Of a DNA stretch of 64,000 bases, positions 8,729 through 62,600 are shown in pieces. The notes below the pieces were generated by a model. The model was not told the origin of the DNA, did no database searches, and saw only the letters and a list, made by a program, of their open reading frames with translations. Made by a program: the position numbers and the translations under genes. This DNA comes from Arbacia lixula (taxonomy: Eukaryota; Echinodermata; Echinoidea; Arbacioida; Arbaciidae), in contig OZ022593.1 in the NCBI GenBank assembly GCA_963669155.1, positions 13,325,120 to 13,389,119 on the forward strand. The letters are read 5' to 3'. Within the stretch, counting starts at the first letter, position 1, and every line of letters starts with the position of its first letter.

Positions 8729-8759
<31 letters not shown>

Positions 8760-31580: not shown

Positions 31581-31599
31581 CAAGGGGATTAGGGAGGAG

Positions 31600-32131: not shown

Positions 32132-32219
32132 AGATTCAGTACATCCAAGAAAGCAACAGGATGAAACACGGGGTAGTAAAGAGTGAAATGAGTAGAGGGT
32201 AGGGAGAACGAAAGATAGA

Positions 32220-32536
32220 TCAATAATAGTTTATAAACATGTCCTTCAGTTTTCTAAATTCTATTGGATTATTGGTCTCGTTTGCCCGTTTGAGCTCTTG
32301 CCTCTTCCCGAGATATTTACCAACCGTATCATAGGAGGTTAAAGTGCGGGTACCATATGCATGGAGCACATTCCCGCCATTGGACCAGTACACAACGTGT
32401 TCATACATGGTTAGACTTCCGAGGGTTCCTCCGTTAATCCCGTAGAGTCTTATGCCGGACTGCTCGCTAGAATCCTTGTCCGTGAGGGCTGTATATACCG
32501 CGCTGTTCTCGGTGTCAGCCATGTATATGTGCCCCT
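32220..32536 (-). CDS. YWTD propeller exon 4, terminal
   Basis: The only AG acceptor available for 1.4 kb is GGATCTTAG (AG at 32537-32538), giving phase 1 entry. Joined to exon 3 it reads GLAVYPC-EGHIYMADTENSAV, which aligns without a gap to the usual GLA-D-W-x-x-G-I-Y-W-x-D blade spacing. It continues through YEHVVYWSNGGNVLHAYG to FINYY and TGA at 32220-32222. Immediately upstream, inside the presumed intron, the same frame reads LDWIL, which looks like an alternative blade start. The last residues are hydrophilic, so the protein seems to end after the propeller. Confidence 0.78.
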
Positions 32537-35500: not shown

Positions 35501-38500
35501 TCAAAGAAAACGAGACAGGGGTGTGTCACATTTTCAAAAAAGACGTTAGCCCTCACTGCGCTAGTAACATCCATTCCTCTCATGTCAGCTATACCGATGT
35601 GGGCAGGGGGAGAATTGGTGGTTTCTGGCAACGCCAGGTAGATCTTACGGTCTCTGGGATCCAGGGCAAAATCAATTGCACCTGTGAATAGAGCACGAAA
35701 GCGATGCCATCATGTATATTGTGATGCAGGTTTCCGGTTCTAAAGAACATCGCAAAAGTTCTACTTGTCCAGCGTTGCCTGGCGGGCTGGTGTCAATGAG
35801 GGTATCAGCTATGATCACAGGTGTTTGCTCTACCCACATAGCTTAAAACCAGCTGTCTTGACAACATGATCATGATGTTAAACTTTGGTGCCGTATTGGG
35901 AGGAGCTGTTTCACAGTTACACCAGGGATGTGTTATGGAAGGATATGAAACAACATTCTTTCTTTGAGCCCATGCGTGGCACCGCCGAAAAATTATGTGG
36001 TCTCAGCATGTGCTTTTCACGTGTTTTAACAATAGCGAACAGGATTTCCTAGCAACGGTTTCTCAGAGAGAACAAAAGTAATGTAGAGTCTTATTTCGCT
36101 TGTCCACTTCTGTTGGATTGCATCAATACTTTTGTGAGGAAACGAGATATCAGCAAACAAAAAAAACATTTTTTTTTTAGTAAAATATCTGAGCTGCACG
36201 CAAATTTCCGCAAACTCTGTTAATGAAAATACACAGCTTCAGATATAATTTTGATAATGATTGAATCCCACATTTGCGGAAATCTGCGGAAAGTGAAGAC
36301 ATTTGTTAATTATGTAAGTAAGAATGTTATCTTTTATCTCCGTTTGTGCATCATTCAACAATTATTTAGAAGAAAATCGAATGCAGGATCTTTAGTGGTG
36401 TTGCCCCTAACTTTCTTGAAAATTACAAAAAAAAAATGTGATAAGAAACACAGCTTCGAGAAACAACAGAGAATTAAAGATATTGCTTTCCAAGTTGACG
36501 GCAGCAAAATAACGGTGCCGCGCATGGGACATGAAAGCATTGCAGTGATTGTGGAATGCTTTTGAAATTCATTAGCACGCTTTAGTATCCATACAGATGT
36601 TTGAATATATTATGCTCGAGTTGTCCCTCCTTCCCAACACATCCCTGGTTACACCATCATTGGGGTAGACATGTTTGGCCTCCTTAGGGAGTGAGGGGTG
36701 GGGGGGGGGGCGTAGAGGGTAAGCTAAGAGGACACAACTCAGGGTCAGAGTATAAACACACGATTGAGAGGGGCAACATTTGACTGGAATGAACGATTTT
36801 ATGGCACCTTCTTTAGGGTATGCAATTATTTCAAATACTCCATCATGTGTGGGTCTCAATACATCTTTTAAGTCATGTGCCATATTTATATTACTCTTGT
36901 AAGCATGCATCAAAGACGTATCAGTAATTGTTGTCAAAAGTGCAAACATGATACGCAAATGTTTATTTTTACCTCTCGCTCCCTTCACGACCTTCATCTC
37001 GTTTTGTCCATCTTTATCTATTCGGTAAATAGAGTTTCCCGCAAGGTAGTAGATGTGTTCGTTCACTGGATCGTAGGAGACAGCATCTGGTCCGTTGCTA
37101 ACGGCGATCACGTGATACTCCAGGTCAGTTATGAGAGTCCCAGGAATAGTGTAACCAAGGAAGATGGCTTTCAGTGTATTCCCAGCCATCACTACTTCAG
37201 TTTGTACTGAGCAAAAACAAACAGAGAGGAAAAGATGGATACAGCGAAGGCTATACTGCCCTAATCTGGCAAAAAGAAGCAACTATCAAAAGAGACCTTT
37301 CTTGTTAATAAGCAAAATGTGTCTGTCTGTCACTTGCATTGGCATCAGTGCAACACCACATCATGCTAGATTGAATATTTCGCAGCAAGATTGATATCTC
37401 TTGTCCAGATTTTGGCCGTAAGTAGGGAATGCTGGGTATAATCTAAGAATACTAATAACCCAGATTTGAGCGATTTGTCACTTGCTTCCTTATGTCAGAG
37501 TAGGGCAGTATAGAGTACCGAAGTGTGACGTCATATGGGCATGTTGTCAAGTTGTCATGTTGGTAGACAGGGTGGAGAACAGAAGTGATCCCATCATGAA
37601 CTCTCATTGGGATGGCCCAACAAAAGTATGTTGTCTAGAACCACAAGCAATGGATATGACAACACCACTCTGTTTATATGTGGTTTAGTGGAGGGAGCTC
37701 TTGCAGAAGGATCCAGGCTTCGAGCCTTGCCCGGTGTGTACACCCTTGGACAATGTGTGTTTTGCTCAGGTTTGTCCCTTTCAACCAAGGTTTATCAAGT
37801 GTGTCTCAAGCAGGATTTATTCCCGATCCAATGAAATCAACCAGTTTTTATCAGGCTGCTTTACTCAGTCCATAATAATCAAGCGCTGTACAAAAATTAA
37901 ATATTTTGTTAATATTTATAGTTCTAGGGAGACAAGAAACATGGTATATATAAAAGCTGGTGATTTTCGCGTCATGTGGTTACAATATGTACTGGCTGAA
38001 ATACATTCACGAAATTTGCATGCAAATCACAATTGCCTATTGTTTTGGCATATTTCATTATTTATATTTCAATTTACGTCCCAGTCGTCCCATGATGCAC
38101 CACGCAGCCACATTTGGATTTTGTTTGCAGTCCGCTTCCGGCGTAGAGTACTGTAGTGTGTGAGAACGGAAGCGGAGATGACTGAAAAACAAATCCAGAT
38201 GACACTACATCGTGGGACAACATTCCTCTATGCGTTGTGGATAATTTGTATCGAGTTATTCTTTACCATACACGCAGTGTGTTCCATTGTCACTCTGAAC
38301 GCATGGGCACTCGGTCGTAAAATCTTCACCAATTGATGTAGAGGTGGGTGGCCCGCTTGTTATCGGATCTTCGCCAGTAGTTATAGTGGTGGGCGTCTCA
38401 CTTGTTGGCGAGTCCGCGCTTGTACTCACGGTGTGGGGCGGCCCGGTTGCACCCGGGGTAGCGCCATCAAACACTGAAACACAACCAGGATATTTGAAGG

Positions 38501-38629: not shown

Positions 38630-41600
38630 GGGGGGGGGGCATTACAACTCATTGTCGTAGTCGGATCTTGGAGGTGATTTCTACAAAGTGTTTCAGTGGA
38701 TATGTGTTTAAGTCAGTGTGAAGGTCCATTTGCTTTCTACATACTCACTGCATACATTTTCATTCGCTTTTGAATAATGTAAACTGCAATTTTATTTCAG
38801 ATTTTTTTTTAATTATAATTCCACCTGGAATATAACACCAACACAAGAAAGTATGTAGTTTTTCATCAGAGGCCTGTATAATCGTTCACAACACTACTGG
38901 ACATGAAATGTGAGCATGCTATATCAATATGATATCTTAACCACTATCTTATAAAGGACTGGTAATAACAGAATTATTATACAAAGTAATTGAAGCGATG
39001 GAGCTAAGTAGTAATACATGGGAACGCGAATTATCGAAGACAAGGAGAGAAAGGAGGCGCCCCAACTTTTAGCGCGTAATACTTTCGGACTCAGCCAAAA
39101 GAAAAAAAAAATCGCTGACTCCTAGATAACATCATTCCCACGGGGACCACCTTCTTCTCATACGCTAATGTTAAGGCTGTTAGATCAATTTAACAGGCTC
39201 ACATCATAGCTTTTTATGATTATCCAGGCATTTGATGAATATTCCAGATTGAATTATTATACATTTTTGTTCAATAAACAGTTATATTTATTTGTTTAAT
39301 GTTTGCATTCTAAATGTACGCAGTTCGTATAAGGAACACGGTTTGATCGTCACAATGACTTTTAAATATTACCTATCATCAACACTATATAATTGCAATG
39401 GGCTTTAATGTCACAAAAGACATGATAGAAGTAAGAAGTATCAGCAACCTTTGCATCGTGACATTTGCAAGCATCATGCCCCTTCACCGCTTCGCCTTCT
39501 CTCATCATAACCACGAGATACTGTTGAAGGAGCTGATTGAGTGACGATTCATCACTTATTCATAATCACGGTCGACCTACATCATTTGATTATCAAAGGG
39601 GTGCAGGGAGATTGAACGTGGTTTTTCCAGCTTTACAACGTTAGTAACTCGGCATGCTTTGATTTATAATTCATCTGCAGAGTGTCAAATATGTTGCTGT
39701 CGCGTGCACTTTTACTAGATTGAAGCCATTACTACTTTGGAGTCATGTCGTTGCTATGGTCAAGTATCAATTTCATCTTGTATTGTCATTTGGAAAAAGA
39801 CTCACGAAAAAAACTCACAAAAAAGACTCACAAAAAAGGGGACAGAGAGTTCTAATGAGATTTTATTTTTTATATTTAGTCGTGGACCACAGTGCAACAA
39901 TTAACACTAAACGACACCGAATACTATATTTACATGTGTATAGTATGTGACTTCTCTAAATGCCAAAATGTACATTACCGGACGACTTTTCTGTTAGCTG
40001 CACGCCTGTAATTGTTTATTGGGGAAACCCCAAAAGCGATCTAAAAGATACATCAACATTGATAAAATATTAATTTAAAATTAACCTTGAGCAACTTGTT
40101 TTCATACGCGTATAAAGAGTGACCTGCATTCGCCCAAGCACCAGGAAATTTGAGCAAATTGGTTTGTAGCCTCAGGTTTCAGGCTTTCAACAAAATATTT
40201 CGCTGAAGACTTTCAAACGTTCATGATGCACATATAGATGAAAAGCTTCCTGTGATAAAACTATGTACATCCTCATTATCAGCATCTGATTCTTGTTTTT
40301 ATCCTCATTCCAACACATAAGCTTATCAAGAAATTATTAGAAGTGTGTAGCCTTATAAGCGGTAAGGAGACTTCGTACACAATAAACCTCAAAGATTAAA
40401 GATTTAGACAAGAGTGCTGACTTTAAAAAAAACTTACCTGTAGCACACTGCTCATCGGTAGGTCCGGCCGGGGACTCGCAGGAATGGCCGTCTAGTGTTT
40501 CCTTGCAGACCGTCCCGTTCGGACACCGCATTGACCAGCAATCTCAAAAATATTAATGAGAAACACATGTTACATTCTTGTTGTTTTATTGCAATTTCTC
40601 TACTCTTATGCAAAAAAGGGCCTTGCATTTACCATGAATGAAAACAAATTAAAATTGAATAAATAATAGTGCACGATCAATTTGTCATTTTCATTGATCA
40701 CATTTACGATCATTAACTTGACGAACTTTGATACCGTATTTATTGAAAAGTGACATCGATGTATTTGCAGTAAATAATTTTGTGGTCCACGATAATCATT
40801 GTTGAAAAGTATTTGAATTGAATTTCCGTGTTTTAACGCAATGGCCGAGAGATGTCTTCACTAAATCGTATGTGTTTCTGATTTACCATTATGATATCCA
40901 CGATAGTTCGATGCACGCTCAAATCAATTAGATCACGCTTTAAAGCGTTGAGCTACGTTTACACCTGCCGTTCGTCGCCTTCTGAGTGACACGTGCGATT
41001 TTCCGCACGGGTACGAACGAAGGTCGCTAAAATTGCTAATTTGCTTGTTAAGTAGATCAGACCGCCATATCCTCGCTGAATGCAAGGATATCAAAACACT
41101 CAAACCTTCGGTCATCGCTCTAATTGTGGGAGCAATTTTGGTCACCATCTTGATTCATATGTAAACCATGCACCTATTTTAACATTTACTCTCTCAGTCC
41201 CATCAGTAATTATGTTGCCAAGTCGATTAAATCACGCTTTAAAGCGTTGAGCTACGTTTACACCTGATGCTCGTCGCCTTCTGAGTGACACGTGCGATTT
41301 TCCGCACGGGTAACGAACGTAAGTAATTCTGTAGTCATTGAAACGGTCCTATCAAACTATCAATGGTCGGTGCTGAGATGGTTAACCTAAACTTAATTAT
41401 GCAGTTTAAATCATCAAAAACAGATGATAGATTTGTCACTTCAACAGAGCTTAGATGAGAATTTACAGAAGAAACATTAAAAAAAGAAGATGATCCCCTT
41501 ACCCGGAATTAAGCAGACCAAATGGACTTCTGTCTGGAACCCACCAAGTAACACCGGACTCCTCATGAATTTCTTAACTAGTTGAATCACGTTACCGTCC

Positions 41601-44600
41601 GGGAGAGCAATATTTGAACAAGGCGGATTGTTGCCAACTTCAAAACCCGATCGATCTGTTTATATTTTTAGAAACATATGTTTGAAATCTAAGCCACGGA
41701 GAGAAGTGATGGTTCAAGAAGTTCCATAATTAACAAAATACAGTTTCGATAAAATATAAATCTAACTCACAGAGAAGTTGCAAGCATTGTAATGTGCTAT
41801 TGAAAGGGCTTGGTTGTCAATAGCACGGATTTCCCCTTCTTTTTTCCCTTTGCTATTCTAAAGTGTGATTAAGGATATGTCATTCCAACAAAATATTTGG
41901 TGCAGAGATATTAACCATAACACAAAACTTAATCTATCTATCAGGTTGGCTAATCTGGAGTCGTTAAATATGATTAACTCTTTATCTGCCACATGTTTTT
42001 TTTTGTTGTTGTTCTTTTGCAAATGCACAAAGTTCCATGAAATGACATTTACCACATTTCCACACGTGATACGTATTGGGGATAACTCATCAACTTGCAT
42101 ACCATATATTTGGCTGGGCGTCAAGTCTGTGGCAGTCTCATCTATATAGGAGAGGTTGAGAGAATGAAAGTCCAAGTTCTGATTGATTTGTATTTGAAGA
42201 CGCTTATTTTTCTTCAAACATTGCATCATATATTTTGAACACAGCAGAACAATGAAATCATAAATTAATGACTCTTGTCACATATATTGACAATGTTGAA
42301 TATGATTACAAAGTGAAACTTGATATTTATTCATACCTTAGCAAATGATACAGTATAAGTCATTAAAATGTGAAGGAAGGCGAAGATTCCTGAAAAAGGA
42401 TCAAACAACATGAACAAAGGGGAAGAAATCTTCCAAACATAATACATACTGTTATGGTATAGAGGAGCCAACGACTTATGTTCGGTACTATATACACGAT
42501 GGTATTTATCATATAATGATAATTTAACTCTTTGTTCCATGTGAGTAGGTAACATGTGTATTTTTCGCAAGTAATATGCAAATTCCATATAAAGGCTTAG
42601 GAGCTTGATTATACCTGTTTTACATTTTGCTTAACATTTCTGCACGTGACATATTGGATTAATCCAAGAACTTGCATACCATATATTTGGCACTAATTTT
42701 GAGGCAGTTTTGTTGAATATCAATCATGTTTTAGATGAAGAACACTTTAAGGTATTCAACTTTAAGGTTTTTTAAATTGCATTTCACCCCCATACTTATA
42801 ACTATTGGAACATTCATTGTGTTTGAATTATGTCCCATGTATACAATTTGATAGCGAGGATTTATTCTTGTTTTTGCCTTGCAATTATAAAGTGTAAATT
42901 TGGATTTGTTATCAATGTAAACAACTGCGTCCTAACCAAATGACTGGTTGCAGAAATAGTATAGCTTGACGAAAAAATTTATATAACCATTTGGTTGGCT
43001 AATCTAGAGTGCACCTTTTGCACAGGTAGTACACACAAATCCCTTACAACAGCAGTTTATCTGGAACCCGAGGCTTATACAGCCTACGAATACTTTTTTT
43101 TTTTACTTTTTACCGCAGAGATATTAACCATAACACAAAACGTAATCTATCTATCAGGTTGGCTAATCTGGAGTCGTTAAATATGATTAACTCTTTATCT
43201 GCCACATGTTTTTTTTTGTTGTTGTTCTTTTGCAAAAGCACAAATTTCCATGAAATGACATTTACCACATTTCCACACGTCATACGTATTGGGGATAACT
43301 CATCAACTTGCATACCATATATTTGGCTGGGCGTCAAGTCTGTGGCAGTCTCATCTATATAGGAGAGGTTGAGAGAATGAAAGTCCAAGTTCTGATTGAT
43401 TTGTATTTGAAGACGCTTATTTTTCTTCAAACATTGCATCATATATTTTGAACACAGCAGAACAATGAAATCATAAATTAATGACTCTTGTCACATATAT
43501 TGACAATGTTGAATATGATTACAAAGTGAAACTTGATATTTATTCATACCTTAGCAAATGATACAGTATAAGTCATTAAAATGTGAAGGAAATCGAAGAT
43601 TCCTGAAAAAGGATCAAACAACATGAACAAAGGGGAAGAAATCTTCCAAACATAATACATACTGTTATGGTATAGAGGAGCCAACGACTTATGTTCGGTA
43701 CTATATACACGATGGTATTTATCATATAATGATAATTTAACTCTTTGTTCCATGTGAGTAGGTAACATGTGTATTTTTCGCAAGTAATATGCAAATTCCA
43801 TATAAAGGCTTAAGAGCTTGATTATACCTGTTTTACATTTTGCTTAACATTTCTGCACGTGACATATTGGATTAATCCAAGAACTTGCATACCATATATT
43901 TGGCACTAATTTTGAGGCAGTTTTGTTGAATATCAATCATGTTTTAGATGAAGAACACTTTAAAGTATTCAACTTTAAGGTTTTTTAAATTGCATTTCAC
44001 CCCCATACTTATAACTATTGGAACATTCATTGTGTTTGAATTATGTCCCATGTATACAATTTGATAGCGAGGATTTATTCTTGTTTTTGCCTTGCAATTA
44101 TAAAGTGTAAATTTGGATTTGTTATCAATGTAAACAACTGCGTCCTAACCAAATGACTGGTTGCAGAAATAGTATAGCTTGACGAAAAAATTTATATAAC
44201 CATTTGGTTGGCTAATCTAGAGTGCACCTTTTGCACAGGTAGTACACACAAATCCCTTACAACAGCAGTTTATCTGGAACCCGGGGCTTATACAGCCTAC
44301 GAATACTTTTTTTTTTACTTTTTACCGCAGAGATATTAACCATAACACAAAACTTAATCTATCTATCAGGTTGGCTAATCTGGAGTCGTTAAATATGATT
44401 AACTCTTTATCTGCCACATGTTTTTTTTTGTTGTTGTTCTTTTGCAAATGCACAAAGTTCCATGAAATGACATTTACCACATTTCCACACGTGATACGTA
44501 TTGGGGATAACTCATCAACTTGCATACCATATATTTGGCTGGGCGTCAAGTCTGTGGCAGTCTCATCTATATAGGAGAGGTTAAGAGAATGAAAGTCCAA

Positions 44601-47600
44601 GTTCTGATTGATTTGTATTTGAAGACGCTTATTTTTCTTCAAACATTGCATCATATATTTTGAACACAGCAGAACAATGAAATCATAAATTAATGACTCT
44701 TGTCACATATATTGACAATGTTGAATATGATTACAAAGTGAAACTTGATATTTATTCATACCTTAGCAAATGATACAGTATAAGTCATTAAAATGTGAAG
44801 GAAGGCGAAGATTCCTGAAAAAGGATCAAACAACATGAACAAAGGGGAAGAAATCTTCCAAACATAATACATACTGTTATGGTATAGAGGAGCCAACGAC
44901 TTATGTTCGGTACTATATACACGATGGTATTTATCATATAATGATAATTTAACTCCTTGTTTCATGTGAGTAGGTAACATGTGTATTTTTCGCAAGTAAT
45001 ATGCAAATTCCATATAGAGGCTTAAGAGCTTGATTATACCTGTTTTACATTTTGCTTAACATTTCTGCACGTAACATATTGGATTAATCCAAGAACTTGC
45101 ATACCATATATTTGGCACTAATTTTGAGGCAGTTTTGTTGAATATCAATCATGTTTTAGATGAAGAACACTTTAAGGCATTCAACTTTAAGGTTTTTTAA
45201 ATTGCATTTCACCCCCATACTTATAACTATTGGAACATTCATTGTGTTTGAATTATGTCCCATGTATACAATTTGATAGCGAGGATTTATTCTTGTTTTT
45301 GCCTTGCAATTATAAAGTGTAAATTTGGATTTGTTATCAATGTAAACAACTGCGTCCTAACCAAATGACTGGTTGCAGAAATAGTATAGCTTGACGAAAA
45401 AATTTATATAACCATTTGGTTGGCTAATCTAGAGTGCACCTTTTGCACAGGTAGTACACACAAATCCCTTACAACAGCAGTTTATCAGGAACCCGAGGCT
45501 TATACAGCCTACGAATACTTTTTTTTTTACTTTTTACCGCAGAGATATTAACCATAACACAAAACTTAATCTATCTATCAGGTTGGCTAATCTGGAGTCG
45601 TTAAATATGACTAACTCTTTATCTGCCACATGTTTTTTTTTTGTTGTTGTTCTTTTGCAAATGCACAAAGTTCCATGAAATGACATTTACCACATTTCCA
45701 CACGTGATACGTATTGGGGATAACTCATCAACTTGCATACCATATATTTGGCTGGGCGTCAAGTCTGTGGCAGTCTCATCTATATAGGAGAGGTTGAGAG
45801 AATGAAAGTCCAAGTTCTGATTGATTTGTATTTGAAGACGCTTATTTTTCTTCAAACATTGCATCATATATTTTGAACACAGCAGAACAATGAAATCATA
45901 AATTAATGACTCTTGTCACATATATTGACAATGTTGAATATGATTACAAAGTGAAACTTGATATTTATTCATACCTTAGCAAATGATACAGTATAAGTCA
46001 TTAAAATGTGAAGGAAGGCGAAGATTCCTGAAAAAGGATCAAACAACATGAACAAAGGGGAAGAAATCTTCCAAACATAATACATACTGTTATGGTATAG
46101 AGGAGCCAACGACTTATGTTCGGTACTATATACACGATGGTATTTATCATATAATGATAATTTAACTCTTTGTTCCATGTGAGTAGGTAACATGTGTATT
46201 TTTCGCAAGTAATATGCAAATTCCATATAAAGGCTTAGGAGCTTGATTATACCTGTTTTACATTTTGCTTAACATTTCTGCACGTGACATATTGGATTAA
46301 TCCAAGAACTTGCATACCATATATTTGGCACTAATTTTGAGGCAGTTTTGTTGAATATCAATCATGTTTTAGATGAAGAACACTTTAAGGTATTCAACTT
46401 TAAGGTTTTTTAAATTGCATTTCACCCCCATACTTATAACTATTGGAACATTCATTGTGTTTGAATTATGTCCCATGTATACAATTTGATAGCGAGGATT
46501 TATTCTTGTTTTTGCCTTGCAATTATAAAGTGTAAATTTGGATTTGTTATCAATGTAAACAACTGCGTCCTAACCAAATGACTGGTTGCAGAAATAGTAT
46601 AGCTTGACGAAAAAATTTATATAACCATTTGGTTGGCTAATCTAGAGTGCACCTTTTGCACAGGTAGTACACACAAATCCCTTACAACAGCAGTTTATCT
46701 GGAACCCGAGGCTTATACAGCCTACGAATACTTTTTTTTTTACATTTTATCTCAGAGATATTAACCATAACACAAAACGTAATCTATTTATCAGGTTGGC
46801 TAAACTGGAGTCGTTAAATATGATTAACTCTTTATCTGCCACATGTTCTTTTTTGTTGTTGTTCTTTTGCAAATGCACAAAGTTCCATGAAATGACATTT
46901 ACCACATTTCCACACGTGATACGTATTGGGGATAACTCATCAACTTGCATACCATATATTTGGCTGGGCGTCAAGTCTGTGGCAGTCTCATCTATATAGG
47001 AGAGGTTGAGAGAATGAAAGTCCAAGTTCTGATTGATTTGTATTTGAAGACGCTTATTTTTCTTCAAACATTGCATCATATATTTTGAACACAGCAGAAC
47101 AATGAAATCATAAATTAATGACTCTTGTCACATATATTGACAATATTGAATATGATTACAAAGTGAAACTTGATATTTATTCATACCTTAGCAAATGATA
47201 CAGTATAAGTCATTAAAATGTGAAGGAAGGCGAAGATTCCTGAAAAAGGATCAAACAACATGAACAAAGGGGAAGAAATCTTCCAAACATAATACATACT
47301 GTTATGGTATAGAGGAGCCAACGACTTATGTTCGGTACTATATACACGATGGTATTTATCATATAATGATAATTTAACTCCTTGTTCCATGTGAGTAGGT
47401 AACATGTGTATTTTTCGCAAGTAATATGCAAATTCCATATAGAGGCTTAAGAGCTTGATTATACCTGTTTTACATTTTGCTTAACATTTCTGCACGTGAC
47501 ATATTGGATTAATCCAAGAACTTGCATACCATATATTTGGCACTAATTTTGAGGCAGTTTTGTTGAATATCAATCATGTTTTAGATGAAGAACACTTTAA

Positions 47601-50600
47601 GGTATTCAACTTTAAGGTTTTTTAAATTGCATTTCACCCCCATACTTATAACTATTGGAACATTCATTGTGTTTGAATTATGTCCCATGTATACAATTTG
47701 ATAGCGAGGATTTATTCTTGTTTTTGCCTTGCAATTATAAAGTGTAAATTTGGATTTGTTATCAATGTAAACAACTGCGTCCTAACCAAATGACTGGTTG
47801 CAGAAATAGTATAGCTTGACGAAAAAATTTATATAACCATTTGGTTGGCTAATCTAGAGTGCACCTTTTGCACAGGTAGTACACACAAATCCCTTACAAC
47901 AGCAGTTTATCTGGAACCCGAGGCTTATACAGCCTACGAATACTTTTTTTTTTTACTTTTTACCGCAGAGATATTAACCATAACACAAAACGTAATCTAT
48001 CTATCAGGTTGGCTAATCTGGAGTCGTTAAATATGATTAACTCTTTATCTGCCACATGTTTTTTTTTGTTGTTGTTCTTTTGCAAAAGCACAAATTTCCA
48101 TAAAATGACATTTACCACATTTCCACACGTCATACGTATTGGGGATAACTCATCAACTTGCATACCATATATTTGGCTGGGCGTCAAGTCTGTGGCAGTC
48201 TCATCTATATAGGAGAGGTTGAGAGAATGAAAGTCCAAGTTCTGATTGATTTGTATTTGAAGACGCTTATTTTTCTTCAAATATTGCATCATATATTTTG
48301 AACACAGCAGAACAATGAAATCATAAATTAATGACTCTTGTCACATATATTGACAATGTTGAATATGATTACAAAGTGAAACTTGATATTTATTCATACC
48401 TTAGCAAATGATACAGTATAAGTCATTAAAATGTGAAGGAAGGCGAAGATTCCTGAAAAAGGATCAAACAACATGAACAAAGGGGAAGAAATCTTCCAAA
48501 CATTATACATACTGTTATGGTATAGAGGAGCCAACAACTTATGTTCGGTACTATATACACGATGGTATTTGTCATATAATGATAATTTAACTCCTTGTTC
48601 CATGTGAGTAGGTAACATGTGTATTTTTCGCAAGTAATATGCAAATTCCATATAGAGGCTTAAGAGCTTGATTATACCTGTTTTACATTTTGCTTAACAT
48701 TTCTGCACGTGACATATTGGATTAATCCAAGAACTTGCATACCATATATTTGGCACTAATTTTGAGGCAGTTTTGTTGAATATCAATCATGTTTTAGATG
48801 AAGAACACTTTAAGGTATTCAACTTTAAGGTTTTTTAAATTGCATTTCACCCCCATACTTATAACTATTGGAACATTCATTGTGTTTGAATTATGTCCCA
48901 TGTATACAATTTGATAGCGAGGATTTATTCTTGTTTTTGCCTTGCAATTATAAAGTGTAAATTTGGATTTGTTATCAATGTAAACAACTGCGTCCTAACC
49001 AAATGACTGGTTGCAGAAATAGTATAGCTTGACGAAAAAATTTATATAACCATTTGGTTGGCTAATCTAGAGTGCACCTTTTGCACAGGTAGTACACACA
49101 AATCCCTTACAACAGCAGTTTATCTGGAAGCCGAGGCTTATACAGCCTACGAATACTTTTTTTTTTACTTTTTACCGCAGAGATATTAACCATAACACAA
49201 AACTTAATCTATCTATCAGGTTGGCTAATCTGGAGTCATTAAATATGATTAACTCTTTATCTGCCACATGTTTTTTTTGTTGTTGTTCTTTTGCAAATGC
49301 ACAAAGTTCCATGAAATGACATTTACCACATTTCCACACGTGATACGTATTGGGGATAACTCATCAACTTGCATACCATATATTTGGCTGGGCGTCAAGT
49401 CTGTGGCAGTCTCATCTATATAGGAGAGGTTGAGAGAATGAAAGTCCAAGTTCTGATTGATTTGTATTTGAAGACGCTTATTTTTCTTCAAACATTGCAT
49501 CATATATTTTGAACACAGCAGAACAATGAAATCATAAATTAATGACTCTTGTCACATATATTGACAATGTTGAATATGATTACAAAGTGAAACTTGATAT
49601 TTATTCATACCTTAGCAAATGATACAGTATAAGTCATTAAAATGTGAAGGAAGGCGAAGATTCCTGAAAAAGGATCAAACAACATGAACAAAGGGGAAGA
49701 AATCTTCCAAACATAATACATACTGTTATGGTATAGAGGAGCCAACGACTTATGTTCGGTACTATATACACAATGGTATTTATCATATAATGATAATTTA
49801 ACTCCTTGTTCCATGTGAGTAGGTAACATGTGTATTTTTCGCAAGTAATATGCAAATTCCATATAGAGGCTTAAGAGCTTGATTATACCTGTTTTACATT
49901 TTGCTTAACATTTCTGCACGTGACATATTGGATTAATCCAAGAACTTGCATACCATATATTTGGCACTAATTTTGAGGCAGTTTTGTTGAATATCAATCA
50001 TGTTTTAGATGAAGAACACTTTAAGGTATTCAACTTTAAGGTTTTTTAAATTGCATTTCACCCCCATACTTATAACTATTGGAACATTCATTGTGTTTGA
50101 ATTATGTCCCATGTATACAATTTGATAGCGAGGATTTATTCTTGTTTTTGCCTTGCAATTATAAAGTGTAAATTTGGATTTGTTATCAATGTAAACAACT
50201 GCGTCCTAACCAAATGACTGGTTGCAGAAATAGTATAGCTTGACGAAAAAATTTATATAACCATTTGGTTGGCTAATCTAGAGTGCACCTTTTGCACAGG
50301 TAGTACACACAAATCCCTTACAACAGCAGTTTATCTGGAACCCGAGGCTTATACAGCCTACGAATACTTTTTTTTTTACTTTTTACCGCAGAGATATTAA
50401 CCATAACACAAAACGTAATCTATCTATCAGGTTGGCTAATCTGGAGTCGTTAAATATGATTAACTCTTTATCTGCCACATGTTTTTTTTTTGTTGTTGTT
50501 CTTTTGCAAAAGCACAAAGTTCCATGAAATGACATTTACCACATTTCCACACGTCATACGTATTGGGGATAACTCATCAACTTGCATACCATATATTTGG

Positions 50601-53600
50601 CTGGGCGTCAGGTCTGTGGCAGTCTCATCTATATAGGAGAGGTTGAGAGAATGAAAGTCCAAGTTCTGATTGATTTGTATTTGAAGACGCTTATTTTTCT
50701 TCAAACATTGCATCATATATTTTGAACACAGCAGAACAATGAAATCATAAATTAATGACTCTTGTCACATATATTGACAATGTTGAATATGATTACAAAG
50801 TGAAACTTGATATTTATTCATACCTTAGCAAATGATACAGTATAAGTCATTAAAATGTGAAGGAAGGCGAAGATTCCTGAAAAAGGATCAAACAACATGA
50901 ACAAAGGGGAAGAAATCTTCCAAACATAATACATACTGTTATGGTATAGAGGAGCCAACGACTTATGTTCGGTACTATATACACGATGGTATTTATCATA
51001 TAATGATAATTTAACTCCTTGTTCCATGTGAGTAGGTAACATGTGTATTTTTCGCAAGTAATATGCAAATTCCATATAGAGGCTTAAGAGCTTGATTATA
51101 CCTGTTTTACATTTTGCTTAACATTTCTGCACGTGACATATTGGATTAATCCAAGAACTTGCATATCATATATTTGGCACTAATTTTGAGGCAGTTTTGT
51201 TGAATATCAATCATGTTTTAGATGAAGAACACTTTAAGGTATTCAACTTTAAGGTTTTTTAAATTGCATTTCACCCCCATACTTATAACTATTGGAACAT
51301 TCATTGTGTTTGAATTATGTCCCATGTATACAATTTGATAGCGAGGATTTATTCTTGTTTTTGCCTTGCAATTATAAAGTGGAAATTTGGATTTGTTATC
51401 AATGTAAACAACTGCGTCCTAACCAAATGACTGGTTGCAGAAATAGTATAGCTTGACGAAAAAATTTATATAACCATTTGGTTGGCTAATCTACAGTGCA
51501 CCTTTTGCACAGGTAGTACACACAAATCCCTTACAACAGCAGTTTATCTGGAACCCGAGGTTTATACAGCCTACGAATACTTTTTTTTTTACTTTTTACC
51601 GCAGAGATATTAACCATAACACAAAACGTAATCTATCTATCAGGTTGGCTAATCTGGAGTCGTTAAATATGATTAACTCTTTATCTGCCACATGTTTTTT
51701 TTTGTTGTTGTTCTTTTGCAAAAGCACAAATTTCCATGAAATGACATTTACCACATTTCCACAAGTCATACGTATTGGGGATAACTCATCAACTTGCATA
51801 CCATATATTTGGCTGGGCGTCAAGTCTGTGGCAGTCTCATCTATATAGGAGAGGTTGAGAGAATGAAAGTCCAAGTTCTGATTGATTTGTATTTGAAGAC
51901 GCTTATTTTTCTTCAAATATTGCATCATATATTTTGAACACAGCAGAACAATGAAATCATAAATTAATGACTCTTGTCACATATATTGACAATGTTGAAT
52001 ATGATTACAAAGTAAAACTTGATATTTATTTATACCTTAGCAAATGATACAGTATAAGTCATTAAAATGTGAAGGAAGGCGAAGATTCCTGAAAAAGGAT
52101 CAAACAACATGAACAAAGGGGAAGAAATCTTCCAAACATAATACATACTGTTATGGTATAGAGGAGCCAACGACTTATGTTCGGTACTATATACACGATG
52201 GTATTTATCATATAATGATAATTTAACTCTTTGTTCCATGTGAGTAGGTAACATGTGTATTTTTCGCAAGTAATATGCAAATTCCATATAAAGGCTTAGG
52301 AGCTTGATTATACCTGTTTTACATTTTGCTTAACATTTCTGCACGTGACATATTGGATTAATCCAAGAACTTGCATACCATATATTTGGCACTAATTTTG
52401 AGGCAGTTTTGTTGAATATCAATCATGTTTTAGATGAAGAACACTTTAAGGTATTCAACTTTAAGGTTTTTTAAATTGCATTTCACCCCCATACTTATAA
52501 CTATTGGAACATTCATTGTGTTTGAATTATGTCCCATGTATACAATTTGATAGCGAGGATTTATTCTTGTTTTTGCCTTGCAATTATAAAGTGTAAATTT
52601 GGATTTGTTATCAATGTAAACAACTGCGTCCTAACCAAATGACTGGTTGCAGAAATAGTATAGCTTGACGAAAAAATTTATATAACCATTTGGTTGGCTA
52701 ATCTAGAGTGCACCTTTTGCACAGGTAGTACACACAAATCCCTTACAACAGCAGTTTATCTGGAACCCGAGGCTTATACAGCCTACGAATACTTTTTTTT
52801 TTACATTTTATCTCAGAGATATTAACCATAACACAAAACGTAATCTATTTATCAGGTTGGCTAAACTGGAGTCGTTAAATATGATTAACTCTTTATCTGC
52901 CACATGTTCTTTTTTGTTGTTGTTCTTTTGCAAATGCACAAAGTTCCATGAAATGACATTTACCACATTTCCACACGTGATACGTATTGGGGATAACTCA
53001 TCAACTTGCATACCATATATTTGGCTGGGCGTCAAGTCTGTGGCAGTCTCATCTATATAGGAGAGGTTGAGAGAATGAAAGTCCAAGTTCTGATTGATTT
53101 GTATTTGAAGACGCTTATTTTTCTTCAAACATTGCATCATATATTTTGAACACAGCAGAACAATGAAATCATAAATTAATGACTCTTGTCACATATATTG
53201 ACAATGTTGAATATGATTACAAAGTGAAACTTGATATTTATTCATACCTTAGCAAATGATACAGTATAAGTCATTAAAATGTGAAGGAAGGCGAAGATTC
53301 CTGAAAAAGGATCAAACAACATGAACAAAGGGGAAGAAATCTTCCAAACATAATACATACTGTTATGGTATAGAGGAGCCAACGACTTATGTTCGGTACT
53401 ATATACACGATGGTATTTATCATATAATGATAATTTAACTCCTTGTTCCATGTGAGTAGGTAACATGTGTATTTTTCGCAAGTAATATGCAAATTCCATA
53501 TAGAGGCTTAAGAGCTTGATTATACCTGTTTTACATTTTGCTTAACATTTCTGCACGTGACATATTGGATTAATCCAAGAACTTGCATACCATATATTTG

Positions 53601-56600
53601 GCACTAATTTTGAGGCAGTTTTGTTGAATATCAATCATGTTTTAGATGAAGAACACTTTAAGGTATTCAACTTTAAGGTTTTTTAAATTGCATTTCACCC
53701 CCATACTTATAACTATTGGAACATTCATTGTGTTTGAATTATGTCCCATGTATACAATTTGATAGCGAGGATTTATTCTTGTTTTTGCCTTGCAATTATA
53801 AAGTGTAAATTTGGATTTGTTATCAATGTAAACAACTGCGTCCTAACCAAATGACTGGTTGCAGAAATAGTATAGCTTGACGAAAAAATTTATATAACCA
53901 TTTGGTTGGCTAATCTAGAGTGCACCTTTTGCACAGGTAGTACACACAAATCCCTTACAACAGCAGTTTATCTGGAACCCGAGGCTTATACAGCCTACGA
54001 ATACTTTTTTTTTTTACTTTTTACCGCAGAGATATTAACCATAACACAAAACGTAATCTATCTATCAGGTTGGCTAATCTGGAGTCGTTAAATATGATTA
54101 ACTCTTTATCTGCCACATGTTTTTTTTTGTTGTTGTTCTTTTGCAAAAGCACAAATTTCCATAAAATGACATTTACCACATTTCCACACGTCATACGTAT
54201 TGGGGATAACTCATCAACTTGCATACCATATATTTGGCTGGGCGTCAAGTCTGTGGCAGTCTCATCTATATAGGAGAGGTTGAGAGAATGAAAGTCCAAG
54301 TTCTGATTGATTTGTATTTGAAGACGCTTATTTTTCTTCAAACATTGCATCATATATTTTGAACACAGCAGAACAATGAAATCATAAATTAATGACTCTT
54401 GTCACATATATTGACAATGTTGAATATGATTACAAAGTGAAACTTGATATTTATTCATACCTTAGCAAATGATACAGTATAAGTCATTAAAATGTGAAGG
54501 AAGGCGAAGATTCCTGAAAAAGGATCAAACAACATGAACAAAGGGGAAGAAATCTTCCAAACATTATACATACTGTTATGGTATAGAGGAGCCAACGACT
54601 TATGTTCGGTACTATATACACGATGGTATTTATCATATAATGATAATTTAACTCCTTGTTCCATGTGAGTAGGTAACATGTGTATTTTTCGCAAGTAATA
54701 TGCAAATTCCATATAGAGGCTTAAGAGCTTGATTATACCTGTTTTACATTTTGCTTAACATTTCTGCACGTGACATATTGGATTAATCCAAGAACTTGCA
54801 TATCATATATTTGGCACTAATTTTGAGGCAGTTTTGTTGAATATCAATCATGTTTTAGATGAAGAACACTTTAAGGTATTCAACTTTAAGGTTTTTTAAA
54901 TTGCATTTCACCCCCATACTTATAACTATTGGAACATTCATTGTGTTTGAATTATGTCCCATGTATACAATTTGATAGCGAGGATTTATTCTTGTTTTTG
55001 CCTTGCAATTATAAAGTGGAAATTTGGATTTGTTATCAATGTAAACAACTGCGTCCTAACCAAATGACTGGTTGCAGAAATAGTATAGCTTGACGAAAAA
55101 ATTTATATAACCATTTGGTTGGCTAATCTAGAGTGCACCTTTTGCACAGGTAGTACACACAAATCCCTTACAACAGCAGTTTATCTGGAACCCGAGGTTT
55201 ATACAGCCTACGAATACTTTTTTTTTTTACTTTTTACCGCAGAGATATTAACCATAACACAAAACGTAATCTATCTATCAGGTTGGCTAATCTGGAGTCG
55301 TTAAATATGATTAACTCTTTATCTGCCACATGTTTTTTTTTGTTGTTGTTCTTTTGCAAAAGCACAAATTTCCATGAAATGACATTTACCACATTTCCAC
55401 AAGTCATACGTATTGGGGATAACTCATCAACTTGCATACCATATATTTGGCTGGGCGTCAAGTCTGTGGCAGTCTCATCTAAATAGGAGAGGTTGAGAGA
55501 ATGAAAGTCCAAGTTCTGATTGATTTGTATTTGAAGACGCTTATTTTTCTTCAAATATTGCATCATATATTTTGAACACAGCAGAACAATGAAATCATAA
55601 ATTAATGACTCTTGTCACATATATTGACAATGTTGAATATGATTACAAAGTGAAACTTGATATTTATTTATACCTTAGCAAATGATACAGTATAAGTCAT
55701 TAAAATGTGAAGGAAGGCGAAGATTCCTGAAAAAGGATCAAACAACATGAACAAAGGGGAAGAAATCTTCCAAACATTATACATACTGTTATGGTATAGA
55801 GGAGCCAACAACTTATGTTCGGTACTATATACACGATGGTATTTGTCATATAATGATAATTTAACTCCTTGTTCCATGTGAGTAGGTAACATGTGTATTT
55901 TTCGCAAGTAATATGCAAATTCCATATAGAGGCTTAAGAGCTTGATTATACCTGTTTTACATTTTGCTTAACATTTCTGCACGTGACATATTGGATTAAT
56001 CCAAGAACTTGCATACCATATATTTGGCACTAATTTTGAGGCAGTTTTGTTGAATATCAATCATGTTTTAGATGAAGAACACTTTAAGGTATTCAACTTT
56101 AAGGTTTTTTAAATTGCATTTCACCCCCATACTTATAACTATTGGAACATTCATTGTGTTTGAATTATGTCCCATGTATACAATTTGATAGCGAGGATTT
56201 ATTCTTGTTTTTGCCTTGCAATTATAAAGTGGAAATTTGGATTTGTTATCAATGTAAACAACTGCGTCCTAACCAAATGACTGGTTGCAGAAATAGTATA
56301 GCTTGACGAAAAAATTTATATAACCATTTGGTTGGCTAATCTAGAGTGCACCTTTTGCACAGGTAGTACACACAAATCCCTTACAACAGCAGTTTATCTG
56401 GAACCCGAGGCTTATACAGCCTACGAATACTTTTTTTTTACTTTTTACCGCAGAGATATTAACCATAACACAAAACTTAATCTATCTATCAGGTTGGCTA
56501 ATCTGGAGTCATTAAATATGATTAACTCTTTATCTGCCACATGTTTTTTTTTTGTTGTTCTTTTGCAAATGCACAAAGTTCCATGAAATGACATTTACCA

Positions 56601-59600
56601 CATTTCCACACGTCATACGTATTGGGGATAACTCATCAACTTGCATACCATATATTTGGCTGGGCGTCAAGTCTGTGGCAGTCTCATCTATATAGGAGAG
56701 GTTGAGAGAATGAAAGTCCAAGTTCTGATTGATTTGTATTTGAAGACGCTTATTTTTCTTCAAACATTGCATCATATATTTTGAACACAGCAGAACAATG
56801 AAATCATAAATTAATGACTCTTGTCACATATATTGACAATGTTGAATATGATTACAAAGTGAAACTTGATATTTATTCATACCTTAGCAAATGATACAGT
56901 ATAAGTCATTAAAATGTGAAGGAAGGCGAAGATTCCTGAAAAAGGATCAAACAACATGAACAAAGGGGAAGAAATCTTCCAAACATAATACATACTGTTA
57001 TGGTATAGAGGAGCCAACGACTTATGTTCGGTACTATATACACGATGGTATTTATCATATAATGATAATTTAACTCCTTGTTCCATGTGAGTAGGTAACA
57101 TGTGTATTTTTCGCAAGTAATATGCAAATTCCATATAGAGGCTTAAGAGCTTGATTATACCTGTTTTACATTTTGCTTAACATTTCTGCACGTGACATAT
57201 TGGATTAATCCAAGAACTTGCATACCATATATTTGGCACTAATTTTGAGGCAGTTTTGTTGAATATCAATCATGTTTTAGATGAAGAACACTTTAAGGTA
57301 TTCAACTTTAAGGTTTTTTAAATTGCATTTCACCCCCATACTTATAACTATTGGAACATTCATTGTGTTTGAATTATGTCCCATGTATACAATTTGATAG
57401 CGAGGATTTATTCTTGTTTTTGCCTTGCAATTATAAAGTGGAAATTTGGATTTGTTATCAATGTAAACAACTGCGTCCTAACCAAATGACTGGTTGCAGA
57501 AATAGTATAGCTTGACGAAAAAATTTATATAACCATTTGGTTGGCTAATCTAGAGTGCACCTTTTGCACAGGTAGTACACACAAATCCCTTACAACAGCA
57601 GTTTATCTGGAACCCGAGGCTTATACAGCCTACGAATACTTTTTTTTTACTTTTTACCGCAGAGATATTAACCATAACACAAAACTTAATCTATCTATCA
57701 GGTTGGCTAATCTGGAGTCATTAAATATGATTAACTCTTTATCTGCCACATGTTTTTTTTTTTTTGTTCTTTTGCAAATGCACAAAGTTCCATGAAATGA
57801 CATTTACCACATTTCCACACGTCATACGTATTGGGGATAACTCATCAACTTGCATACCATATATTTGGCTGGGCGTCAAGTCTGTGGCAGTCTCATCTAT
57901 ATAGGAGAGGTTGAGAGAATGAAAGTCCAAGTTCTGATTGATTTGTATTTGAAGACGCTTATTTTTCTTCAAACATTGCATCATATATTTTGAACACAGC
58001 AGAACAATGAAATCATAAATTAATGACTCTTGTCACATATATTGACAATGTTGAATATGATTACAAAGTGAAACTTGATATTTATTCATACCTTAGCAAA
58101 TGATACAGTATAAGTCATTAAAATGTGAAGGAAGGCGAAGATTCCTGAAAAAGGATCAAACAACATGAACAAAGGGGAAGAAATCTTCCAAACATAATAC
58201 ATACTGTTATGGTATAGAGGAGCCAACGACTTATGTTCGGTACTATATACACGATGGTATTTATCATATAATGATAATTTAACTCCTTGTTCCATGTGAG
58301 TAGGTAACATGTGTATTTTTCGCAAGTAATATGCAAATTCCATATAGAGGCTTAAGAGCTTGATTATACCTGTTTTACATTTTGCTTAACATTTCTGCAC
58401 GTGACATATTGGATTAATCCAAGAACTTGCATACCATATATTTGGCACTAATTTTGAGGCAGTTTTGTTGAATATCAATCATGTTTTAGATGAAGAACAC
58501 TTTAAGGTATTCAACTTTAAGGTTTTTTAAATTGCATTTCACCCTCATACTTATAACTATTGGAACATTCATTGTGTTTGAATTATGTCCCATGTATACA
58601 ATTTGATAGCGAGGATTTATTCTTGTTTTTGCCTTGCAATTATAAAGTGTAAATTTGGATTTGTTATCAATGTAAACAACTGCGTCCTAACCAAATGACT
58701 GGTTGCAGAAATAGTATAGCTTGACGAAAAAATTTATATAACCATTTGGTTGGCTAATCTAGAGTGCACCTTTTGCACAGGTAGTACACACAAATCCCTT
58801 ACAACAGCAGTTTATCTGGAACCCGAGGCTTATACAGCCTACGAATACTTTTTTTTTTACTTTTTACCGCAGAGATATTAACCATAACACAAAACTTAAT
58901 CTATCTATCAGGTTGGCTAATCTGGAGTCGTTAAATATGATTAACTCTTTATCTGTCACATGTTTTTTGTTGTTGTTGTTCTTTTGCAAATGCACAAAGT
59001 TCCATGAAATGACATTTACCACATTTCCACACGTGATACGTATTGGGGATAACTCATCAACTTGCATACCATATATTTGGCTGGGCGTCAAGTCTGTGGC
59101 AGTCTCATCTATATAGGAGAGGTTGAGAGAATGAAAGTCCAAGTTCTGATTGATTTGTATTTGAAGACGCTTATTTTTCTTCAAACATTGCATCATATAT
59201 TTTGAACACAGCAGAACAATGAAATCATAAATTAATGACTCTTGTCACATATATTGACAATGTTGAATATGATTACAAAGGGAAACTTGATATTTATTCA
59301 TACCTTAGCAAATGATACAGTATAAGTCATTAAAATGTGAAGGAAGGCGAAGATTCCTGAAAAAGGATCAAACAACATGAACAAAGGGGAAGAAATCTTC
59401 CAAACATAATACATACTGTTATGGTATAGAGGAGCCAACGACTTATGTTCGGTACTATATACACGATGGTATTTATCATATAATGATAATTTAACTCCTT
59501 GTTCCATGTGAGTAGGTAACATGTGTATTTTTCGCAAGTAATATGCAAATTCCATATAGAGGCTTAAGAGCTTGATTATACCTGTTTTACATTTTGCTTA

Positions 59601-62600
59601 ACATTTCTGCACGTGACATATTGGATTAATCCAAGAACTTGCATACCATATATTTGGCACTAATTTTGAGGCAGTTTTGTTGAATATCAATCATGTTTTA
59701 GATGAAGAACACTTTAAGGTATTCAACTTTAAGGTTTTTTAAATTGCATTTCACCCCCATACTTATAACTATTGGAACATTCATTGTGTTTGAATTATGT
59801 CCCATGTATACAATTTGATAGCGAGGATTTATTCTTGTTTTTGCCTTGCAATTATAAAGTGTAAATTTGGATTTGTTATCAATGTAAACAACTGCGTCCT
59901 AACCAAATGACTGGTTGCAGAAATAGTATAGCTTGACGAAAAAATTTATATAACCATTTGGTTGGCTAATCTAGAGTGCACCTTTTGCACAGGTAGTACA
60001 CACAAATCCCTTACAACAGCAGTTTATCTGGAACCCGAGGCTTATACAGCCTACGAATACTTTTTTTTTTTTTACTTTTTACCGCAGAGATATTAACCAT
60101 AACACAAAACTTAATCTATCTATCAGGTTGGCTAATCTGGAGTCGTTAAATATGATTAACTCTTTATCTGCCACATGTTTTTTTTGTTGTTGTTCTTTTG
60201 CAAATGCACAAAGTTCCATGAAATGACATTTACCACATTTCCACACGTCATACGTATTGGGGATAACTCATCAACTTGCATACCATATATTTGGCTGGGC
60301 GTCAAGTCTGTGGCAGTCTCATCTATATAGGAGAGGTTGAGAGAATGAAAGTCCAAGTTCTGATTGATTTGTATTTGAAGACGCTTATTTTTCTTCAAAC
60401 ATTGCATCATATATTTTGAACACAGCAGAACAATGAAATCATAAATTAATGACTCTTGTCACATATATTGACAATGTTGAATATGATTACAAAGGGAAAC
60501 TTGATATTTATTCATACCTTAGCAAATGATACAGTATAAGTCATTAAAATGTGAAGGAAGGCGAAGATTCCTGAAAAAGGATCAAACAACATGAACAAAG
60601 GGGAAGAAATCTTCCAAACATAATACATACTGTTATGGTATAGAGGAGCCAACAACTTATGTTCGGTACTATATACACGATGGTATTTATCATATAATGA
60701 TAATTTAACTCCTTGTTCCATGTGAGTAGGTAACATGTGTATTTTTAGCAAGTAATATGCAAATTCCATATAGAGGCTTAAGAGCTTGATTATACCTGTT
60801 TTACATTTTGCTTAACATTTCTGCACGTGACATATTGGATTAATCCAAGAACTTGCATACCATATATTTGGCACTAATTTTGAGGCAGTTTTGTTGAATA
60901 TCAATCATGTTTTAGATGAAGAACACTTTAAGGTATTCAACTTTAAGGTTTTTTAAATTGCATTTCACCCCCATACTTATAACTATTGGAACATTCATTG
61001 TGTTTGAATTATGTCCCATGTATACAATTTGATAGCGAGGATTTATTCTTGTTTTTGCCTTGCAATTATAAAGTGTAAATTTGGATTTGTTATCAATGTA
61101 AACAACTGCGTCCTAACCAAATGACTGGTTGCAGAAATAGTATAGCTTGACGAAAAAAATTATATAACCATTTGGTTGGCTAATCTAGAGTGCACCTTTT
61201 GCACAGGTAGTACACACAAATCCCTTACAACAGCAGTTTATCTGGAACCCGAGGCTTATACAGCCTACGAATACTTTTTTTTTTACTTTTTACCGCAGAG
61301 ATATTAACCATAACACAAAACTTAATCTATCTATCAGGTTGGCTAATCTGGAGTCGTTAAATATGATTAACTCTTTATCTGCCACATGTTTTTTTTTTTT
61401 GTTGTTCTTTTGCAAATGCACAAAGTTCCATGAAATGACATTTACCACATTTCCACACGTGATACGTATTGGGGATAACTCATCAACTTGCATACCATAT
61501 ATTTGGCTGGGCGTCAAGTCTGTGGCAGTCTCATCTATATAGGAGAGGTTGAGAGAATGAAAGTCCAAGTTCTGATTGATTTGTATTTGAAGACGCTTAT
61601 TTTTCTTCAAATATTGCATCATATATTTTGAACACAGCAGAACAATGAAATCATAAATTAATGACTCTTGTCACATATATTGACAATGTTGAATATGATT
61701 ACAAAGGGAAACTTGATATTTATTCATACCTTAGCAAATGATACAGTATAAGTCATTAAAATGTAAAGAGAGGCGAAGATTCCTGAAAAGGATCAAACAA
61801 CATGAACAAAGGGGAAGAAATCTTCCAAACATAATACATACTGTTATGGTATAGAGGAGCCAACGACTTATGTTTGGTACTATATACACAATGGTATTTA
61901 TCATATAATGATAATTTAACTCCTTGTTTCATGTGTGAGGAGGTAACATGTGTATTTTTCGCAAGTAATATGCAAATTCCATATAGAGGCTTAAGAGCTT
62001 GATTATACCTGTTTTACATTTTGCTTAACATTTCTGCACGTGACATATTGGATTAATCCAAGAACTTGCATACCATATATTTGGCACTAATTTTGAGGCA
62101 GTTTTGTTGAATATCAATCATGTTTTAGATGAAGAACACTTTAAGGTATTCAACTTTAAGGTTTTTTAAATTGCATTTCACCCCCATACTTATAACTATT
62201 GGAACATTCATTGTGTTTGAATTATGTCCCATGTATACAATTTGATAGCGAGGATTTATTCTTGTTTTTGCCTTGCAATTATAAAGTGTAAATTTGGATT
62301 TGTTATCAATGTAAACAACTGCGTCCTAACCAAATGACTGGTTGCAGAAAAAGTATAGCTTGACGAAAAAAATTTATATAACCATTTGGTTGGCTAATCT
62401 AGAGTGCACCTTTTGCACAGGTAGTACACACAAATCCCTTACAACAGCAGTTTATCTGGAACCCGAGGCTTATACAGCCTACGAATACTTTTTTTTTTTA
62501 CCATTACGTGAATCCTGTGTTTAAAAAATACCCCATTAGCTTATAACACAGGAACCCCAATGCCCTGCGTGTTATGTCAATGGGAGGTCAGGTGGGGAAT

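Follow-up and report, generated by a model that had tools for sequence, protein, structure and literature searches.

A gene on the minus strand of the window (the whole stretch of 64,000 nucleotides analysed here) contains a tandem array of 17 unit-lengths, and we propose that it is probably a genuine intragenic array of symmetric 39-nt coding exons, which would encode a stalk that is acidic, rich in Thr and Ser and up to 18 repeats long. A predicted, frame-preserving exon lies in each head-to-tail unit, between two unique predicted exons of the one gene, and an 18th, diverged copy of the exon (ME0) stands alone outside the array.

The array, its exons and the surrounding gene

When one 1,212-bp unit was used as a BLASTN query, 16 full copies and end pieces of 299 bp and 905 columns were found, which sum to 17.0 unit-lengths placed head-to-tail over 20,596 bp (41903–62498); this bears out the array of 17 units of about 1212 bp that had been claimed in the earlier note. 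The array is absent from the Tandem Repeats Finder output because the longest period of that output is 500. The features, with array exons counted from the first base after the AG, are listed in the direction of the gene:

63714–63827, minus strand, EGF-like exon upstream of the array, phase 1-1, Pfam EGF at cut-off
63070–63108, minus strand, ME0, single 39-nt exon, diverged, located after the EGF exon and before the array, DETAKDVTPSQIY
41903–62498, minus strand, tandem array, 17 unit-lengths of ~1,212 bp, each unit with a 39-nt exon plus a decayed exon copy
61496–61534, minus strand, array exon 1, DETATDLTPSQIY
60284–60322, minus strand, array exon 2
59070–59108, minus strand, array exon 3
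57858–57896, minus strand, array exon 4
56649–56687, minus strand, array exon 5
55440–55478, minus strand, array exon 6
54227–54265, minus strand, array exon 7
53014–53052, minus strand, array exon 8
51802–51840, minus strand, array exon 9
50590–50628, minus strand, array exon 10, with the synonymous TTG to CTG change
49377–49415, minus strand, array exon 11
48166–48204, minus strand, array exon 12
46953–46991, minus strand, array exon 13
45741–45779, minus strand, array exon 14
44528–44566, minus strand, array exon 15
43316–43354, minus strand, array exon 16
42103–42141, minus strand, array exon 17
52379–52413 (bounds approximate), minus strand, one instance of the decayed exon copy, with its donor side retained, a gap of 5 nt and an exon start that lacks an acceptor
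41503–41655, minus strand, exon B, phase 1-1, with a diverged duplicate (B') that lies upstream of the window
40438–40542, minus strand, exon C, cysteine-rich, 50% identity to the EGF exon that lies immediately upstream of the window
38267–38473, minus strand, exon D, Thr/Ser/Pro-rich linker
36973–37206, minus strand, exon E, propeller-like
35489–35681, minus strand, exon F, propeller-like
34798–34937, minus strand, exon G, propeller-like
32220–32536, minus strand, exon H, propeller-like, frame open as far as a TGA stop, possible donor at 32321

Each of the 17 units carries on the minus strand an AG acceptor, 39 nt and a GTATGC donor, as the earlier note had described (acceptor, 39 nt, GTATG). 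The segment is in phase 1-1, gives the same 13 residues, DETATDLTPSQIY, in all 17 copies and is followed in every copy by an identical GGTATGCAAGTT. One of its 39 columns varies among the units (TTG to CTG, both Leu), and the acceptor region has a single base change in two of the 17 copies. Ranked among all AGs on the minus strand, the acceptor reaches the 97.9th percentile; the donor, ranked among all GTs, reaches the 96.2nd. Both are inside the range of the other exons of the gene. The EGF exon ends with a split I|G in phase 1 and exon B starts in phase 1, so that the frame would be kept at any copy number, again as claimed before. The units are alike along their whole length, introns included, as in a homogenised, exon-bearing coding tandem repeat: mean identity of the unit cores is 99.0% (17 units compared), with SNPs in 49 of 1,160 core columns. 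The single variable exon column compares with about 1.7 expected at the 4.3% intron rate, a non-significant difference, and purifying selection inside the array was not adopted as an argument.

All 17 units also carry a decayed copy of the exon end with its donor, which gives a picture of what loss of the exon looks like, in contrast with ME0. The earlier note lists neither ME0 nor the decayed copies. One explanation for these data, to which we give a minor share of the probability, is that only ME0 and perhaps a few array exons are used, most array exons being skipped, so that the array would be a largely neutral intronic expansion carrying an exon. As whole units are alike, intact exons in 17 copies need no selection on each copy; the decay of one exon in every unit and the ordinary strength of the array donor would also fit such an expansion. 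It accounts less well for an array acceptor that is better than that of ME0 (92.7th percentile) and for the intact frame and phase of all 17 array exons, and we prefer the reading in which the array is coding.

The unique exons of the gene are 105–317 bp long, and the introns from the EGF exon through exon F are in phase 1. Exons B and C, both of which a transcript of the array would have to include, have diverged homologues further upstream in the gene; the homologue of B agrees with it in phase. A context of EGF modules and a Thr/Ser-rich linker had been claimed and is supported by exon D and by Pfam, with 21.5 bits for the EGF domain in the window (cut-off 21.5) and 34.3 bits for that upstream of it. 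The 'YWTD propeller' of the earlier note is retained as propeller-like by the appearance of the sequence: Pfam gave only DUF5050 (E 2.1e-5), whose 24.3 bits are below the cut-off of 27, and a phmmer comparison with PDB sequences gave no match at E <= 1. The repeat stretch also matched Lysostaphin_N (E 1.1e-4), but with 22.7 bits where the cut-off is 60, and none of the matching stretches passed by itself; membership was rejected and the match ascribed to a composition effect of the 13-residue repeat. No Rfam family reached its gathering threshold in the window and no tRNA was found there by ARAGORN.

A solitary diverged copy and the chance expectation

The agreement of 17 peptides had been presented as a property of all copies, which it is; it does not amount to 17 independent observations, and counting it as such was rejected. 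Because the units are about 99% identical, the 17 array exons are closer to one observation. Nor is the array alone decisive, since comparable mini-exons arise by chance at 0.15–0.20 per unit, or about one in five to seven unit-lengths. This rate, scored with approximate splice weights, comes from the 41.5 kb of non-array minus strand, where five chance mini-exons were as good as an array copy and seven open, phase-1 candidates of 9–57 nt were as good as ME0, none of the latter being 39 nt long. The 39-nt segment could alternatively be a fortuitous open AG..GT segment in a non-coding intronic satellite; the chance rate and the dependence of the copies would allow this.

It is ME0, not the array, that lifts the predicted exon above chance. 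ME0 keeps the length, phase, frame and both splice sites of the array exon, and its flanks have changed more: 34 of 39 exon positions are identical in a gap-free alignment, and 112 of 161 aligned flank positions are identical in one that needs gaps (the first 9 bases of the intron left out). Flank identity is 68–71% across four gap settings, and the difference between exon and flanks gives binomial P values of 0.004–0.015 and Fisher P values of 0.018–0.042, statistics that are modest and alignment-dependent. An earlier flank count of 78/109 (binomial P 0.018, Fisher P 0.054, simulation 0.4%) was superseded, as it held only 28 downstream columns, a product of free end gaps. Among 10,000 simulated neutral copies, 0.1–0.5% had at most two amino-acid changes and no stop, as ME0 has, and no 39-column window outside the ME0 exon scores above 30, compared with 34 for the exon. 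Homology of the flank extends further upstream of ME0 (alignment score 33, where 100 shuffles reached at most 19.5); its whole downstream flank, aligned with the unit, scored 17.5 and so did not exceed the shuffles, which reached 21.5.

In the 314 kb that contain the window, the unit had only 38-bp and 22-bp matches outside the window at E <= 1e-3, which argues against a satellite, and no similar 13-residue exon was found elsewhere, the upstream 40 kb included. Of 550 open, phase-1 AG-39-GT candidates on the minus strand of these 314 kb, 18 reach a score of 67 against the peptide, and none of the others exceeds 12. A fortuitous segment is an improbable reading, and the coding exon remains the preferred one. 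A whole-genome search with three joined repeats as protein gave no scored match at E <= 0.001, a result that is uninformative as introns split the query; the same search listed 17 first-look candidates, equal to the number of array exons. Protein homologues were absent at E <= 0.001 among the best 8,000 candidates (those sharing most words) and, in a second search, among 1,656 candidates. The exact pattern had no match in viral and prokaryote contigs, as expected for an animal gene.

That the true copy number is not 17, the repeat having been collapsed or expanded in assembly, is very improbable: assembly is difficult for 1.2-kb units that are nearly identical, a single column separates units 8 and 13, and the similar SmPoMuc repeats are described as not assemblable from trace records (PMC2576457), but most units have distinct variant combinations over 27 informative columns, as in a resolved array, and the window lies within a 21.4-Mb contig.

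A possible origin and role

We propose that a short exon between the EGF module and exon B was duplicated together with its intron, that one old copy may have remained single as ME0, and that the 1,212-bp unit would derive from an adjacent two-exon segment with one exon decayed. This unit would then have been amplified to 17 copies, their near-identity perhaps maintained by unequal exchange or gene conversion. Spliced together in a single frame, the EGF exon, ME0, all or part of the array exons, and exon B would give a stalk outside the cell that is acidic, rich in Thr and Ser and at most 18 x 13 residues long. With 17 copies and an older one, the length of this stalk could be adjustable in a protein that would be secreted or lie on the cell surface. 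More tentatively, the stalk might be O-glycosylated and perhaps tyrosine-sulfated, its size differing between individuals by copy number and between tissues by exon inclusion; it would be SmPoMuc-like and of independent origin, in a modular EGF gene. If its exons are spliced in, the array would add to the rare genes whose protein length depends on how many near-identical tiny exons they have. It would also allow two things to be tested: how the splicing machinery deals with about 18 consecutive exons that have almost identical splice sites, and how, of two twin exons in a homogenised unit, one can decay and the other survive intact.

Comparison with known systems

The earlier note knew of no described system of this form, but the SmPoMuc genes of Schistosoma mansoni come close to it (PMC2576457). 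There, a 27-bp exon of nine residues forms with its introns tandem units of ~1 kb, at most ~20 per gene and >93% identical, for which concerted evolution is invoked; the repeats encode predicted Ser/Thr glycosylation sites (PMC2576457). The predicted exon here is likewise very short and lies with its introns in near-identical tandem units, of ~1.2 kb. The present exon differs in its 39 bp, 13 residues and peptide, one locus is seen, and no GA microsatellite is listed between the units by Tandem Repeats Finder. SmPoMuc is moreover a mucin gene whose repeats adjoin the signal peptide and whose transcripts are known (PMC2576457), whereas the context here is EGF and propeller-like and the exons are predicted. 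On this evidence the array would work like SmPoMuc and is not assigned to that family, which has 27-bp exons of nine residues.

Chicken BG genes and human LPA are of a related kind. In chicken BG genes, 13–36 small exons of 21 or 24 nt in a row form the tail, their number differs between genes, and copy-number variation of the exon repeat in BG1 is ascribed to crossing-over; as described, these exons encode cytoplasmic heptad repeats and fall into 57 sequence groups among 358 (PMC4046983, PMC5043582). The present 39-nt, 13-residue exon in a homogenised 1.2-kb unit is unlike such 21- or 24-nt heptad exons. The kringle IV-2 coding VNTR of human LPA resembles the array in its tandem exon-plus-intron units within a gene; its 5.6-kb unit has two exons and encodes a kringle domain, and 1 to ~40 copies make protein length differ between people (PMC11462820). 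Here each unit has one 39-nt exon for a 13-residue linker, and no kringle was among the six Pfam families listed at E <= 1 for the spliced protein.

Strict definitions of a microexon are set at about 27–30 nt. With 39 nt the present exon exceeds these, and the earlier label of microexon holds in the wider sense of the schistosome micro-exon genes, which are described as having 10–20 very short exons of 3–81 bp, mostly multiples of three and most of them 15 bp, with introns of 0.1–5 kb (PMC10526429). The 18 predicted 39-nt exons, most of them ~1.2 kb apart, share this arrangement of short exons and introns, but they differ from the typical 15-bp exons and are near-identical copies gathered at a single place in a gene that is otherwise modular.

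Predicted exons of the gene

The window lies on a contig of 21.4 Mb, from an assembly totalling 607 Mb. The predicted gene extends on the minus strand from beyond 64000 down to approximately 32220; its EGF modules and introns in phase 1 suggest that the DNA is animal.

Predicted exons, in gene order (window positions)
63714-63827, minus, EGF exon
63070-63108, minus, ME0, a solitary 39-nt exon outside the array
between ME0 and exon B, minus, 17 array exons of 39 nt each
41503-41655, minus, exon B
40438-40542, minus, exon C
38267-38473, minus, exon D, Thr/Ser-rich
36973-37206, minus, exon E
35489-35681, minus, exon F
34798-34937, minus, exon G
32220-32536, minus, segment H, open to a stop

As read from the sequence, every intron between the EGF exon and the start of F is in phase 1, and the one that follows F is in phase 2. 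Acceptor strength was uneven, with B at the 54th and C at the 75th percentile of all AGs by splice-weight scoring; these percentiles, and the mini-exon scores below, were computed with approximate splice weights. The YWTD label for the predicted protein is putative. Immediately before H on the gene's strand, a 14-bp unit repeated about 91 times forms a minisatellite whose plus strand is G-rich (32585-33848), and a decayed H duplicate with an in-frame stop lies at 31597-31882 (73% over 295 bp to 32190-32482).

Upstream of the window are diverged duplicates of C (C', contig positions 13389477-13389584; 50% over 36 residues) and of B (B', 13390626-13390760, BLAST extent; 47% over 45 residues), through which the gene is predicted to extend past the window. 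An AG ahead of B' would yield the same phase as B and, given these duplicates, the gene seems to have been enlarged previously through exon duplication.

The 39-nt segments as candidate exons

The earlier note's reading of the 39-nt segments as exon-like was borne out: in 17/17 copies they are phase 1-1 inside a phase-1 gap, with an open frame, an AG and GTATGC. Chance mini-exons of equal quality occur at 0.15-0.20 per 1,212 bp of the non-array minus strand and, as the array units are copies of one another, independent support has to come from ME0. Its exon matches the array exon at 34 of 39 positions, gap-free, compared with 112/161 for its flanks in a gapped alignment (62/81 from the 90 bp upstream; 50/80 downstream, leaving out the first 9 intron bases). 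This difference gave a binomial P of 0.009 and a Fisher P of 0.027 (0.004-0.015 and 0.018-0.042, respectively, across four gap settings). The five base changes in ME0 produce two residue changes (K/T and V/L), and an equally conservative, stop-free outcome arose in 0.1-0.5% of 10,000 simulated neutral copies. When a 39-column window was slid along ME0 and the unit, the exon scored 34 and windows outside it 30 at most, with windows displaced a few columns into the donor reaching up to 35. The ME0 flank farther upstream also aligned with the unit (score 33; maximum of 100 shuffles, 19.5), and exon and intron were therefore probably duplicated as one piece. The downstream stretch 62499-63069, taken whole against the unit, scored 17.5, below the shuffle maximum of 21.5, and no homology was found there.

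Every unit contains a second exon-like stretch about 550 bp ahead of the intact exon, 79-80% identical to the exon end and donor over 61 bp in 17/17 units. In a three-way alignment it shows a gap of 5 nt, and no acceptor is present where the exon would begin. From this single alignment we infer that the unit may once have been a pair of exon-bearing segments, one exon being lost prior to amplification.

Near-identity of the array units

BLASTN with one unit placed the array at 41903-62498, where 16 complete copies plus a piece at either end add up to 17.0 unit-lengths. The array ends at unit positions 914 and 902, and a run of A adjoins the upstream end. Mean identity of the unit core was 99.0%, with SNPs in 49 of 1,160 core columns. 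Differences between units showed only a weak correlation with their separation along the array (r 0.19). Units 8 and 13 differed at one column; private differences were most numerous in the upstream edge unit (11 of its 16 differences), with none in the downstream edge unit. This pattern is consistent with unequal exchange or conversion in which only one end shows an edge effect. Within 314 kb of contig (7,700 N), unit matches beyond the window were of 38 and 22 bp, which speaks solely against a locally dispersed satellite.

Other repeats occur in the window. A large direct duplication pairs 1-1940 with 6251-8165 (96%) and 2666-4061 with 8159-9554 (98%); the first copy has about 725 extra bases (1939-2667) that look like an inserted repeat and are 76% similar to 35921-36649 in an intron of the predicted gene. 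Two opposite-orientation arrays of an approximately 160-bp tandem repeat (21525-22445 and 25112-26041), about 3 kb apart, are around 84-86% alike as inverted copies.

A proposed stalk and known exon arrays

Transcripts would join the EGF exon, ME0, n array exons and then B, and the proposal that any copy number n keeps the frame holds for this order. Thr/Ser-rich stretches are potential O-glycosylated stalks, and Tyr beside acidic residues is a potential sulfation site. Each predicted repeat, D-E-T-A-T-D-L-T-P-S-Q-I-Y, has three acidic residues and four Thr/Ser; its plainest role would be an extended, possibly O-glycosylated stalk, and the repeat junctions, Tyr then Asp-Glu, would also suit sulfation.

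No report of the gene or peptide itself was found in searches of the literature by features of the gene. The suggestion that no system of this form had been described was not supported, as several papers make the design a known one. In SmPoMuc of Schistosoma mansoni, a 27-bp exon is part of a genomic unit of about 1 kb repeated in tandem; a gene has about 20 such units at most, >93% identical, and the 9-residue repeats that they encode differ in number among transcripts (PMC2576457). Chicken BG genes have rows of 13-36 exons, each of 21 or 24 nt, and BG1 exon-repeat copy-number variation is attributed to crossing-over (PMC4046983, PMC5043582). In LPA KIV-2, a 5.6-kb unit is present 1 to about 40 times (PMC11462820). 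The SmPoMuc paper further cites concerted evolution of both exons and introns that are repeated in spider silk genes and in one gene of Coccidioides (PMC2576457). The predicted array would work as SmPoMuc does but is not classed as a member of that family.
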